Shown: in pieces, positions 48,078-52,538 of the stretch
Layout of the letters: the number at the start of each line of letters is the position of its first letter
Position numbering within the stretch: the first letter of the stretch is position 1
From: Hymenobacter sp. HSC-4F20
GTDB taxonomy: Bacteria > Bacteroidota > Bacteroidia > Cytophagales > Hymenobacteraceae
Direction of reading: 5' to 3'
Length of the DNA: 64,000 nt
Assembly: GCF_019599275.1 (NCBI RefSeq)
Contig: NZ_JAHZTD010000001.1
Coordinates: 434,001 to 498,000, forward strand
The notes under the pieces: generated by a model
The model's input: only the letters and a program-made list of their open reading frames with translations
What the model was told of the DNA's origin: nothing
The model's database searches: none
Translations under genes and position numbers: made by a program

Positions 48078-49100
48078 ATGAAACCACAAACCCGAACTAC
48101 CTGGCTGGCTGCGGCCGGCACCCTTGGCCTGCTGGCCGCTACGCTTTACTCTAACCGCCGCGGTAGCTACGAGTTGGCGGGCCGGGTAATACTCATAACG
48201 GGCGGCTCCCGCGGCCTGGGACTTATCCTGGCCCGCCAAGCTGTGGCGGAGGGCGCCAGGGTCGCTATCTGCGCCCGCGACGCCGATGAGCTGGAGCGCG
48301 CCCGCCAAGAATTAACTCAGAGCGGGGCCGAGGTGCTGGCTCTGGTCCGCAACCTGACCAATGCTGAGGAAGTGGAAACTCTGGTGGCGGAGGTGCAGCA
48401 CCAACTAGGGGCCATCGACGTGCTGGTGAACAACGCCGGCATCATTACGGCCGGCCCCCTGGATAATATTGAGCTGCGCGACTATCAGGAATCGATGGAT
48501 ACGCACTTCTGGGCCCCGCTTCACGCCATGCGGGCTGTGCTGCCCAGCATGCGCCGCCGGGGAGAAGGCCGCATCGTGAATATTGCCTCGGTAGGAGGCA
48601 AGGTGCCCGTGCCCCACCTGGCCCCGTACTGCGCCAGCAAGTTTGCCCTAGTGGGCCTCTCAGAAAGCTACCGCGCCGAGCTGTTGCAGTATGGTATTCA
48701 GGTAACCACCGTTTGCCCCGGCCTGCTGCGCACCGGCAGCGCCCGGCACGCCATCGTCAAAGGCCAGCACAAAAAGGAATACGCCGCCTTCATCATTGCC
48801 GACTCCCTACCCATGCTTTCCATGGATGCCGACCGCGCCGGCCGCGAAATCTGGAACGCCTGCCGCCGCGGCGACGCCGAAGTGATTCTGAGCGTGCCGG
48901 CCAAAGTGCTTTCCACTCTGCACGGCCTGTTTCCCGGCACTACCGCCAATGTGCTGAGCTGGGTGAACCGCACCCTGCCCGGCCCCGGCGGCCCCCTCGG
49001 CGACGAGCGGCGCCGGGGCTACGAAAGCGAATCGGAAGTTAGCCGCTCCTGGCTCACGGCCCTAACCCGCAAAGCCGAGCGGCAGAACAACGAGCGGTAA
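48078..49100 (+). CDS. Short-chain dehydrogenase/reductase with N-terminal membrane helix
   Basis: 340 residues. Residues 8-24 (TWLAAAGTLGLLAATLY) are one hydrophobic helix. The Rossmann fold follows with TGGSRGLG at 41-48 (nucleotide binding), NNAG at 118-121 and the catalytic triad S171, Y184 and K188 (YCASK). An Arg at 67 after the second strand (ICARD) favours NADPH. The C-terminal about 60 residues extend beyond the usual SDR length. It is a possible membrane-attached oxidoreductase; the substrate is unknown. Confidence 0.9.
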   Translation: MKPQTRTTWLAAAGTLGLLAATLYSNRRGSYELAGRVILITGGSRGLGLILARQAVAEGARVAICARDADELERARQELTQSGAEVLALVRNLTNAEEVETLVAEVQHQLGAIDVLVNNAGIITAGPLDNIELRDYQESMDTHFWAPLHAMRAVLPSMRRRGEGRIVNIASVGGKVPVPHLAPYCASKFALVGLSESYRAELLQYGIQVTTVCPGLLRTGSARHAIVKGQHKKEYAAFIIADSLPMLSMDADRAGREIWNACRRGDAEVILSVPAKVLSTLHGLFPGTTANVLSWVNRTLPGPGGPLGDERRRGYESESEVSRSWLTALTRKAERQNNER

Positions 49101-49443: not shown

Positions 49444-50205
49444 TTGTCCTACCCCGTTCACCTCACGTTAGGGCCGCTCACGCTACCTATCCATCTGCTG
49501 CTGGAGGTGCTGGCGTATTCCGTGGGCTACCGCTTCTACCAGCACCTCCGGACCCGCTTCCCCGACCCGATTTCCGACGAAAACCGCCTCTGGATTTTCA
49601 TGGGCTGCGCGGCCGGAGCCCTGCTCGGCTCCCGCATGTTGGGCCTGTTGGAGCACCCGGAACTGCTGCGGCACCCGCCTGGCGGCTGGCTGTACTACTT
49701 CACCAACAAAACCATCGTTGGGGGCCTGCTGGGTGGCCTGGTAGGGGTAGAGCTGACCAAAAAGCGCCTCGGCGTGACAACCTCCAGCGGCGACCTGATG
49801 GTGTACCCCATCCTGCTGGCCCTGTGCATCGGCCGGCTGGGCTGCCACCTCTCGGGCCTCGAAGACGGCACCTACGGCACGGCCACTACCTTGCCCTGGG
49901 GCTTCAACTTCGGCGACGGGGTAGCGCGCCACCCCACCAACCTCTATGAAATTGGCTGGCTGCTGCTCACGGCGGCCGGCTTATGGCTGGCCGAGCAACG
50001 CGGGCCACTCCCGAACGGTTGGCGCTTCCGGTTTTTCCTGGCGGGCTACCTGCTGTTCCGGCTGCTGGTGGAGTTCCTAAAGCCCACGGCCGCCCCGGCC
50101 GGCTGGGGCCTCACCGCTATTCAATGGGCCTGCGTGGCGGGGCTGGGGTACTATGGGTGGTTGTTTGGGCGAGGAAGTGCCCAAAAGCAGTTAATTGAAT
50201 CTTAA
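49444..50205 (+). CDS. Divergent Lgt-family membrane protein lacking key Lgt residues
   Basis: 253 residues from TTG 49444, the only start after an in-frame TAA. About seven helices. It has the Lgt family layout: GCAAGALLGSRMLG at 54-67, GRLGCHLSG at 130-138 and RHPTNLYE at 162-169. The Arg of the Lgt signature is present (R131), but the motif Asn is Cys (C134), and the catalytic-His segment reads KTIVGGLLGG, with Val where Lgt has His. It is therefore probably not the prolipoprotein diacylglyceryl transferase but a paralog acting on a related lipid. It lies just upstream of the radical SAM gene cluster. Confidence 0.8.
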   Translation: MSYPVHLTLGPLTLPIHLLLEVLAYSVGYRFYQHLRTRFPDPISDENRLWIFMGCAAGALLGSRMLGLLEHPELLRHPPGGWLYYFTNKTIVGGLLGGLVGVELTKKRLGVTTSSGDLMVYPILLALCIGRLGCHLSGLEDGTYGTATTLPWGFNFGDGVARHPTNLYEIGWLLLTAAGLWLAEQRGPLPNGWRFRFFLAGYLLFRLLVEFLKPTAAPAGWGLTAIQWACVAGLGYYGWLFGRGSAQKQLIES

Positions 50206-50265
50206 TTTATGGAACACAACAGCCATTTGAGATACAGCGGCTTAGCTACTGTGCGTAGGTCTTAC

Positions 50266-50817
50266 ATGACAGAGTTTATTGTCGAGTGCCCGAAGTGTCG
50301 GTCTGCAGCGTTTGTGACCTGTGACAATCCTTATTCTTATTGCAACGGAAAATTAGCCTGTGCTAATTGCTCGCATGTGGAGCATGCTGAATCCTTAATT
50401 CGATACCGAGTTCTAATTAAGAAGTACTGTAATAACTGTGGATCAACAATTGATTATACTGCTCCTGAGTTAAAAGAGAGGATAAATAAAATTAATATTA
50501 AGTGTCCTGCTTGCAGCGCCTTGCAGGAATTACAACCTCGCAATGAGCAGTATCAAATTCAATACAAAAGCACTAGTAAAGTAAATGACCCTATTTTTAG
50601 TTTACCCTTATGGCTACAGACAGAGGTAAAAGGAAACCTGCTATGGGCGTACAATAGGCGACACCTTCAAGATATTAAGGAGTATGTTGAATCGAAACTA
50701 AGAGAGCGGCAAACAACAAGGTACACAACGATGGTAGAGCGTTTACCCACCTTTATAAAAGTGGCTAAAAACCGTAGCGCTATCCTCAAAGTAGTTGAAA
50801 GACTAATTAATAAATAG
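50266..50817 (+). CDS. Zinc-ribbon protein of a Bacteroidota family
   Basis: 183 residues from ATG 50266 (MTEFIVECPKCRSAAF), matching related proteins as I recall them; an ATG at 50209, only three bases after the Lgt-like stop, is the alternative. Residues 8-11 and about 32-36 form CxxC pairs, and a second ribbon has CNNC at about 57-60 and CPAC at about 78-81. The C-terminal half (PIFSLPLWLQTEVKGNLLWAYNRRHLQDIKEYV) is helical. It may bind nucleic acid or protein. It is more AT-rich than its neighbours. Function unknown. Confidence 0.65.
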   Translation: MTEFIVECPKCRSAAFVTCDNPYSYCNGKLACANCSHVEHAESLIRYRVLIKKYCNNCGSTIDYTAPELKERINKINIKCPACSALQELQPRNEQYQIQYKSTSKVNDPIFSLPLWLQTEVKGNLLWAYNRRHLQDIKEYVESKLRERQTTRYTTMVERLPTFIKVAKNRSAILKVVERLINK

Positions 50818-50846
50818 TTTCTGATTGCTTCTCATTAATATCACTC

Positions 50847-52247
50847 ATGCCCGAACGGCCCTATACCTACTACGATTTCACCCTGAGTCTGTGTCCGCAC
50901 TGCCTGCGGCGGGTAGAAGCCAAAATTGTCTTTGAAGATGGCGGTGTGTACATGCTCAAGCGCTGCCCCAGCCACGGCCGCCAGAAGGTGCTCATTGCTA
51001 CCGACATTGAGTACTACAAAAGCATCCGCAACTACGTGAAGCCCAGCGAAACGCCGCGCCGCTTCAACACTGCTACCCACTACGGCTGCCCCTACGACTG
51101 CGGCTTGTGTGCCGACCACGAGCAGCACAGCTGCCTCACCGTCATCGAAATAACCGACCGCTGCAACCTGACCTGCCCTACCTGCTACGCCGAAAGCAGC
51201 CCCCTGCACGGCCGGCACCGCACCCTGGACGAGGTAGAAGCCATGGTGGACGTGCTGGTGGAAAACGAAGGCGAGCCCGACGTGGTGCAAATTTCCGGTG
51301 GGGAGCCCACCCTGCACCCGCAGTTCTGGGAGATTCTGGACATGTGCAAGCGCAAGCCCATCAAGCACCTGATGGTGAACACCAACGGCGTGCGCCTGGC
51401 CAAGGACGAGGCCTTCGTGGCCCGGCTGGCTACCTACGAAGGCGCGTTTGAGGTGTACCTGCAGTTTGATTCCTTCAAGAAGGAAGCCCTGGAAAGTCTG
51501 CGCGGGCGCGACCTGCGCGAGGTGCGCCGCCAAGCCCTAGACCACCTCAACAAATACAACCTCAGCACCACCCTGGTCGTGACCCTGCAAAAAGGACTCA
51601 ACGACGACGAAATGGGCCAGATCATCGACTACGCCTTGCAGCAGCGCTGCGTGCGCGGCGTCACGTTCCAGCCTACCCAGGCAGCCGGCCGCCTCCAGAA
51701 CTTCGACCCCGCCACCGACCGCCTCACCCTCACCGAAACCCGCCAGCGCATCATCGAGCAAAGCCCCGTCTTTACCGCCGAAGATCTACTGCCCGTGCCC
51801 TGCAACCCCGACGCGCTGGTGATGGGCTACGCCCTGAAGCTGGGCGGCGAAGTGTTTCCGCTCACGCGCTACGTGCAGCCCGCCGAGCTGCTCCAGAGCA
51901 GCGGCAACACCATTGTGTACGAGCACGACCCACGCCTACGCCAGCACCTGCTGCGCCTGTTCAGCACGGCCAACACTGTGGATACCATCACGCCCGAGCT
52001 CAACCAGCTCCTATGTTGCCTACCCTCCATCCAAGCCCCCAACCTCCGCTACGAAAACCTGTTCCGAGTCATCATCCTGCAGTTTATGGATGCCTGGAAC
52101 TTTGATGTGCGCGCCATCAAGAAGTCCTGCGTGCATATCGTGAGCAAGGATTTGAAGATTATTCCTTTCGAAACCATGAACCTGCTGTACCGCGACGAAG
52201 AAAAACTGGCCCGCCTGCAGCAGCTGCGCGATATTCCGGTTCTCTAA
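50847..52247 (+). CDS. Radical SAM protein of the Tes/MJ0619 (tetraether synthase) family
   Basis: 466 residues. The N-terminal rubredoxin-like zinc or iron site is C16, C19, C40 and H43. CPYDCGLCADHEQHSC holds C81, C85, C88 and C96, then the radical SAM triad C106, C110 and C113 (CNLTCPTC). VQISGGEPTLHPQF (about 150) gives the GGE SAM-binding motif. The C-terminal LQFMDAWNFDVRAIKKSCVH matches Tes proteins. Archaeal Tes couples lipid tails of two phospholipids into tetraethers. A bacterial homolog could act on membrane lipids; that is inference. Confidence 0.9.
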   Translation: MPERPYTYYDFTLSLCPHCLRRVEAKIVFEDGGVYMLKRCPSHGRQKVLIATDIEYYKSIRNYVKPSETPRRFNTATHYGCPYDCGLCADHEQHSCLTVIEITDRCNLTCPTCYAESSPLHGRHRTLDEVEAMVDVLVENEGEPDVVQISGGEPTLHPQFWEILDMCKRKPIKHLMVNTNGVRLAKDEAFVARLATYEGAFEVYLQFDSFKKEALESLRGRDLREVRRQALDHLNKYNLSTTLVVTLQKGLNDDEMGQIIDYALQQRCVRGVTFQPTQAAGRLQNFDPATDRLTLTETRQRIIEQSPVFTAEDLLPVPCNPDALVMGYALKLGGEVFPLTRYVQPAELLQSSGNTIVYEHDPRLRQHLLRLFSTANTVDTITPELNQLLCCLPSIQAPNLRYENLFRVIILQFMDAWNFDVRAIKKSCVHIVSKDLKIIPFETMNLLYRDEEKLARLQQLRDIPVL

Positions 52248-52256
52248 CCCCTGCTG

Positions 52257-52538
52257 ATGGAAACGCCCGAATCACCGAAACCACCCGAAAAATCCACCAG
52301 TGACCTGTTGGCCCAGGTAGTAGTAGCAAATTTTGCCGCGCTGCTGGTCCTGGGCGGGCTTGGCGGCTTTATCGGAATGCTGGCCCTGCCGGTGCTAAAC
52401 CTGGTAATCGGGGTAGCGCTCCTGTTCACCGCGCACCGCAAGTTGGGCAAAGTAATACTACTATCGGGGCTGGTAGTGGGTCTGCTGGGGCTGGGCACCT
52501 GTGCCCTCATCCTCAGTAATTTGCGTGTCAATCATTAA
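52257..52538 (+). CDS. Small three-helix membrane protein
   Basis: 93 residues, starting nine bases after the radical SAM stop, so probably in the same operon. A short charged N-terminus (METPESPKPPEKS), then hydrophobic segments at about 20-42, 43-58 and 64-88. No domain is recognised. Likely a membrane partner for the radical SAM or Lgt-like protein; that is inference. Confidence 0.6.
   Translation: METPESPKPPEKSTSDLLAQVVVANFAALLVLGGLGGFIGMLALPVLNLVIGVALLFTAHRKLGKVILLSGLVVGLLGLGTCALILSNLRVNH

Follow-up and report, generated by a model that had tools for sequence, protein, structure and literature searches.

We describe a three-component membrane module predicted from a window of 64,000 nucleotides (nt) of Hymenobacter sp. 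HSC-4F20 (contig NZ_JAHZTD010000001.1, positions 434,001 to 498,000; "the window" is this whole stretch). Its predicted parts are an integral membrane protein related to the prolipoprotein lipid transferase Lgt (the Lgt-like protein), a radical S-adenosylmethionine (SAM) protein of the Tes/TrsS type, and one to three small membrane proteins with a cysteine in their tail. We regard the three-part module as new, with a function predicted from sequence, because its enzymes lack features that define Lgt, Tes and TrsS, and because no description of the module or of the small-protein family was found in the open PubMed Central (PMC) subset. The evidence comprises linkage, co-occurrence, joint decay in one genome, catalytic-type residues and the tail cysteine, and we infer that the small protein is a candidate substrate.

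The preliminary description of this DNA expected above all that the Lgt-like and Tes-like genes would be paired in related genomes, and this is strongly borne out. The radical SAM gene is patchily distributed, occurring in 12 of 60 genomes of the family and in 34 of 395 genomes of the phylum. Each of the 12 family genomes with this gene has a match to the Lgt-like protein (350–372 bits), whereas none of the 48 family genomes without it has an intact Lgt-like gene (best full-length match 94.5 bits); the 60 genomes are related, and these co-occurrences are not independent events. Joint decay was seen in one family genome (G025), where the Lgt-like gene is broken up across two frames, a search for the radical SAM gene gave no match, and relics of the small protein, recognised by eye, are flanked by the same SDR and MutM-type genes. 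In genome G093, the three module genes are on three contigs, and the small one (E 0.037) was recognised by its sequence.

Of 44 loci (the window and 43 others), 40 have the Lgt-like gene. Two of the loci that lack it (L061 and L081) have a copy elsewhere in the genome (300 and 284 bits), and the remaining pair of loci (L086 and L087) contain distant Tes-like genes with 26–28% identity. At 108 loci with both genes, the distance from the Lgt-like stop to the radical SAM start, which was set by rule, is at most 60 nt in 72 cases, with the genes overlapping in 51 of these; it is 61–350 nt in 8 loci and larger in 18, and the Lgt-like gene is downstream in 10. Moreover, distances among the Lgt-like proteins are correlated with those among the radical SAM proteins (r 0.874, n=106; the highest of 500 permutations reached 0.202); the Clostridium lacusfryxellense locus (L092) was left out of this and of all 106-locus residue counts below. 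Ten of 119 loci have no Lgt-like gene in the stretch. In three of these stretches (L132, L140 and L143), fewer than 310 bases precede the radical SAM gene, and the ten also include L141 and L081, the latter with its copy elsewhere. In Flavobacterium davisii (L100), the Lgt-like gene appears as two open reading frames (ORFs) of 112 and 91 bits and may be broken.

The small membrane protein is the third core part of the predicted module. The preliminary description had listed it as a three-helix membrane protein, without singling it out as a conserved partner, and its cysteine went unseen. One to three such tiny proteins are encoded either downstream of the radical SAM gene, or in the space between the paired genes, or beyond both. 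A direct search with the window protein found one relative among the 43 other loci, and seven copies from different groups had no Pfam match above cut-off; the small proteins were identified by position, size and shared end. A fixed rule applied to all six frames, in place of a gene finder, supplied the ORFs, and many of the control ORFs are not real genes. The count used 119 of 124 loci, leaving out L089 and L096 (on the contigs of L084 and L082, respectively), L086 and L087 (26–28% identity, no module) and L061 (unlinked). A tail cysteine, that is, one within the last 25 residues and right after a hydrophobic stretch, is present in 122 of 129 small hydrophobic ORFs that adjoin the pair. It is found in 23 of 112 small hydrophobic ORFs more than 2.5 kb away (p 4e-35 if the ORFs were independent, which they are not), with close agreement between strands (12/56 on + and 11/56 on −), and in 1 of 14 small ORFs beside other long genes, a small set.

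At least one adjoining tail-cysteine protein occurs in 103 of the 119 loci (103/122 if L086, L087 and L061 are counted as misses), and 98 of the 119 have both such a protein and the Lgt-like gene. Two small proteins adjoin the pair in 19 of the 119 loci, and up to three were seen. No adjoining small ORF was found by rule at 11 loci: four of these stretches (L094, L105, L136 and L146) end at most 300 bases past the radical SAM gene, three (L023, L085 and L115) encode a protein that the rule narrowly misses, and L101, L111, L118 and L155 are otherwise unaccounted for. An earlier count by regular expression gave the small protein in 55 of 80 stretches, below the later rule, Paenibacillus and cyanobacteria accounting for part of this. 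By chained similarity, the 129 small ORFs form 18 clusters, one of them with 97 members, and the cysteine is present in 13 of the 18; the small proteins are mostly one diverging family.

The window copy has a K/R loop, a last hydrophobic helix and then the end GLGTC-ALILSNLRVNH. Glycine is the commonest residue at positions −4 (83/122) and −2 (84/122) from the tail cysteine, often giving G-x-G-x-Cys. The segment before the last helix has a net positive charge in 110 of the 122 proteins, a negative charge in 6 and zero charge in 6; by the positive-inside rule, the positive loop suggests that the tail cysteine faces outside. The residues after the cysteine often end in M-H, N-H or F-H (window positions 52503–52535, for example), with His as the last residue in 34 of 122. 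Further tail-cysteine targets in the window genome were sought with a short profile, a weak one, which returned only the window copy as significant (E 2e-13; next 0.02), and this speaks tentatively against many genomic targets for the Lgt-like enzyme.

The Lgt-like protein passes the Pfam LGT cut-off (about 78 bits, 77.7–78.1, against 24.9) and fails that of the equivalog model TIGR00544 (26.1 bits against 118.9). Its predicted structure is of good confidence (predicted local distance difference test, pLDDT, 85.6) and has the Lgt fold, with PDB 5azb as the best match (template modelling, TM, score 0.60, E 1.4e-7); a second comparison with 5azb gave Z 13.7 and a root mean square deviation of 4.7 over 238 aligned residues. 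Window residues R131, C134, Y202 and R206 align with R143, N146, Y235 and R239 of E. coli Lgt, and V92 sits at the H103 position. In an alignment of 40 members with E. coli Lgt, R143, E202, Y235, R239, H196 and both glycines of HGGL are kept in all 40, and the E243 position has E in 34 and D in 6. As the preliminary description had recognised, this is a divergent Lgt-family protein without the catalytic-type His and the signature Asn. The HGGL histidine (His103) is missing from all 40, being replaced by V (24), M (11), L (2), A (2) or T (1), and Asn146 is Cys in 40/40 members and 106/106 loci (overlapping sets). In addition, Tyr26 has become His in 37 of the 40 and Tyr30 has become Glu in 36. 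Across the 106 loci, which span several phyla, R131, C134 and R206 are kept in 106, Y202 and E169 in 105, H17 in 97 and E21 in 95.

In E. coli Lgt, according to excerpts of PMC4728403, R143, E202, Y235, R239 and E243 bind and activate phosphatidylglycerol, R143 and R239 being held to activate the phospholipid, and the HGGL arm has been proposed as the binder of the lipobox peptide. With the R143/R239 network retained and the HGGL histidine lost, the donor side of the window-type enzyme looks conserved and its acceptor side looks rebuilt. The family shares with E. coli Lgt the fold, the Arg143, Glu202, Tyr235, Arg239 and Glu243 network and, as expected from homology, an outward-facing active site, but it differs in the loss of His103, the invariant Cys for Asn146 and the mostly His/Glu residues for Tyr26/Tyr30, and in travelling with a radical SAM gene. 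In a tree of Lgt relatives, a 16-row core forms a clade (97/93), whereas E. coli Lgt, the Lgt of the window genome and a third paralogue are on long branches, so that the deeper order is unsafe. An LGT search of this 5.3 Mb genome found three LGT-domain proteins, including an ordinary Lgt (248.5 bits) and a third, longer protein (52.5 bits). The latter (L003, genome C9:1861503-1862252) lies in a 628-aa frame with a long C-terminal part, and it has GCxxxGCCxG where the Lgt signature would stand, with Cys aligned to R143.

A Pfam scan of the radical SAM protein identified the SAM motif and an 'HMPTM' zinc-ribbon domain. Its closest solved structure is Tes (7tol, E 4e-65; model TM score 0.75), the GDGT-MAS tetraether synthase MJ0619 of M. 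jannaschii. Among NCBIfam models, TrsS (NF045646), a radical SAM (seleno)protein, is the best match over nearly the whole length (328.1 bits, cut-off 490), followed by Tes (NF045702; 282.9 bits, cut-off 450). The earlier assignment to the Tes family holds in so far as the protein matches Tes in structure and sequence, but TrsS ranks above Tes and both scores fall below cut-off. Because six further members score in the same ranges (TrsS 314–330 and Tes 274–295 bits, again below both cut-offs), the window-type proteins look like a separate clade near TrsS and Tes. Unlike a selenoprotein gene of the TrsS kind, the window gene has no in-frame TGA. TrsS itself was found in one paper of the open PMC subset, as a single appearance in a table among the parts retrieved. 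The C. lacusfryxellense gene (L092) has an in-frame stop inside the N-terminal cluster motif, owing to a broken gene or a sequencing error; selenocysteine was rejected there, the stop being TAA.

Compared with the metal-site ligands of Tes, taken from excerpts of PMC9433317, those for three of the four sites are conserved: the rubredoxin-like site C16/C19/C40/H43 (three Cys in 106/106 loci, H43 in 104), the N-terminal auxiliary cluster C81/C85/C88/H91 (105/106) and the SAM cluster C106/C110/C113 (CX3CX2C, 106/106). The ligands of the C-terminal cluster appear to be re-arranged relative to Tes, as this clade has its own cysteines, C319 and C428 in 106/106 and C390 and C391 in 98/106 each, in a region where the local model is weak. 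A further cysteine, C96, is invariant (106/106). At the positions of Tes Met439 and Tyr459, the 7tol alignment, with a deduced chain numbering offset of 20, places Leu411 and Ile431. Since Tes variants at both sites remain active (excerpts of PMC9433317), this loss weakens membership in Tes, not function. The window protein also differs from Tes in being bacterial and in having two fixed partners. Mss, a bacterial membrane-spanning lipid synthase in which the catalytic architecture of Tes is conserved according to models (excerpts of PMC13274423), has the likeness to Tes in common with the window protein, the two being compared by description only; the retrieved passages of that paper mention no Lgt-like or small-protein partner.

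We tentatively favour the reading that the Lgt-like enzyme lipidates the cysteine of the small protein and that the Tes-like enzyme performs radical chemistry on the lipid chain. The tail cysteine is preferred as the acceptor because the last helix is built like the signal peptide of a lipoprotein and the Lgt donor pocket is kept. The positive loop and hydrophobic stretch would hold this helix in the membrane as in a lipoprotein signal peptide, with the cysteine outside, where Lgt works. The Arg/Tyr/Glu pocket of the Lgt-like enzyme would activate the glycerol C3–O bond of a phospholipid, and a diacylglyceryl-type group would be put onto the tail cysteine at an acceptor site presumably rebuilt through the loss of His103, the invariant Cys and, in most members, the new His and Glu in helix 1. 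On the cytoplasmic side, the radical SAM enzyme would take a hydrogen from the hydrocarbon chain of the lipid before or after attachment and then make a C–C or C–S bond, with the radical parked on the C-terminal cluster as in Tes. This would yield a small membrane protein to which an unusual lipid is tethered or cross-linked. The broader claim of a new multi-phylum modification, in which a glycerolipid on a C-terminal-region cysteine of dedicated mini membrane proteins would receive a Tes-like C–C or C–S bond, perhaps as a membrane-spanning lipid tether, is doubtful.

The preliminary description had proposed a lipid modification such as tail coupling. A lipid-related reaction stays plausible, given the Lgt phospholipid pocket and the three retained Tes metal sites, but tail coupling itself stays hypothetical, Met439/Tyr459 being replaced and the C-terminal ligands apparently re-arranged, and the conserved cysteine hints instead at a reaction linked to a protein, as in lipoproteins. 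Once the small protein is included, the earlier proposal becomes an alternative that we regard as somewhat unlikely: the trio would form a complex modifying free membrane phospholipids (for example by sulfur insertion, methylation or tail coupling), the Lgt-like protein presenting or flipping the lipid and the small protein acting as a subunit or thiol relay, not as a substrate. The same linkage data would follow, and lipids are substrates of Tes, which binds phospholipid tails in a hydrophobic tunnel (excerpts of PMC9433317). In 8/8 locus pairs, conservation is highest for the radical SAM protein and lowest for the small protein; constancy of the former while the Lgt-like and small proteins drift is expected if the substrate is common and unchanging, as a lipid chain would be, and agrees equally well with lipidation of the small protein. 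Modification of free phospholipids alone, however, leaves unexplained both the cysteine after a signal-peptide-like helix and the tandem diverging copies.

Tandem copies, together with small precursor-like ORFs that have a variable body and a conserved cysteine end, could also fit a peptide maturase: the radical SAM protein would introduce a thioether or other cross-link on the cysteine tail, and the Lgt-like protein would process, anchor or export the product. We consider this improbable. TrsS and Tes are the best curated and solved relatives, and peptide maturases score far lower; the cysteine would lie outside, whereas the enzyme is expected in the cytoplasm; and no further gene family resembling an exporter or a protease is common to most of the 44 loci. 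It is very improbable that the Lgt-like protein is a second ordinary prolipoprotein lipid transferase with neighbours assembled by chance, as its Lgt fold and Pfam score might suggest, in view of the universal loss of H103 and N146, the failure against TIGR00544, the normal Lgt elsewhere in the genome and the strict co-occurrence with the radical SAM gene.

Several observations weigh against the favoured lipidation of the small protein. H103, essential in E. coli Lgt, and the signature N146 are gone, so that catalysis is not assured. The classical lipobox, whose pattern we take to be that of PROSITE, precedes the cysteine in 35 of 122 tails, the window copy not being among them. The same linkage and cysteine would also be expected of a fast-evolving tiny subunit, and the single significant copy in the window genome suggests that there is no wide target set. 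The loci are related (18 clusters, one of 97), so the counts overstate independence, and a few of the 122 tail-cysteine ORFs look spurious (L090 and the first of L095). Two Reyranella loci (L118 and L138) have the pair without an adjoining tail-cysteine protein. The radical SAM model has pLDDT below 50 over residues 363–400, around C390/C391. Finally, the substrate, the lipid and the order of steps are what we infer from sequence.

Bacterial Tes homologues have been put forward for the synthesis of branched glycerol dialkyl glycerol tetraethers (brGDGT) without experimental confirmation (excerpts of PMC8941075 and PMC11868695). If one large group of such homologues works together with an Lgt-like enzyme on a small membrane protein, gene-based predictions of the producers of membrane-spanning lipids need care, and a new lipid or lipoprotein chemistry would be testable with three short genes, one candidate substrate and one cysteine in culturable bacteria.

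The preliminary description had considered the proposed modification with respect to Bacteroidota, and the module extends beyond that phylum. In a scan of named genomes, the best 80 of at least 566 relatives include Pedobacter, Flavobacterium, Chitinophaga, Aquimarina, Niabella and others within Bacteroidota. Outside it, they include Paenibacillus, Fictibacillus, Clostridium, Cylindrospermum and other cyanobacteria, and Reyranella, as well as Elusimicrobia and Ignavibacteria bins, although the assignments of these metagenome-assembled genomes may be wrong. Lgt-like genes are present in 71 of the 80 stretches, and tail-cysteine small proteins were found in Paenibacillus, Fictibacillus, cyanobacteria, Clostridium and Elusimicrobia. 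The window radical SAM protein shares 92% identity with its counterpart in Hymenobacter metallilatus (L140), 61% with the one in Paenibacillus and 56% with the one in Cylindrospermum. At L082, L083, L084 and L085, where the radical SAM protein is only 35–41% identical, a tail-cysteine protein still adjoins the Lgt-like gene. The first three of these loci have a five-gene module of radical SAM, ICMT-type membrane, DUF4395-like, Lgt-like (GCFFxGCCYG) and tail-cysteine proteins, in which one ICMT-type and one DUF4395-like protein were scanned and the others called by eye; L084 is an Ignavibacteria bin and L082 a bin named Chlorobaculum. In both Reyranella loci the Lgt-like gene is much diverged (136–139 bits), and at L138 the adjoining protein is a proline-rich small membrane protein with an internal cysteine, not one at the tail.

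The preliminary description had placed four genes in this part of the window, and all were found there as + strand ORFs (Table 1).

Table 1. Features of the module region, in window coordinates.
Feature	Position	Strand	Size	Remarks
Lgt-like integral membrane protein	49444..50205	+	253 aa, TTG start	First ORF of four
Zinc-ribbon-type protein	50209..50817	+	202 aa	Passenger
Tes/TrsS-related radical SAM protein	50847..52247	+	466 aa	Third ORF of four
Small membrane protein	52257..52538	+	93 aa	Predicted third core component, candidate substrate
Cys82 codon of the small membrane protein	52500..52502	+		Position computed from the ORF; conserved Cys after the last helix

The zinc-ribbon gene, which had been counted as part of the cluster, was rejected as a module member, as it occurs in 1 of the 44 loci, the window itself. 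The upstream SDR gene (48078–49100) was also rejected as a part of the module; an orthologue (69–78%) is present in 7 of the 11 other family loci, and the remaining ones have none, or only a relative of 25–34%. A defence system was considered and rejected: among eight proteins scanned (four from the window and four passengers), the radical SAM protein alone gave a match (pVip, viperin, about 50 bits), which is due to the radical SAM core that the two share. In the 12 family loci (the window, with the gap at 50206–50846, and L016–L026), the Lgt-like and radical SAM genes are 416–1722 nt apart, as if the gap were a cargo site, whereas in other loci one usually abuts the other. Four passenger proteins of the gap matched no Pfam family above cut-off, and its ORFs, among those listed, look different from locus to locus.

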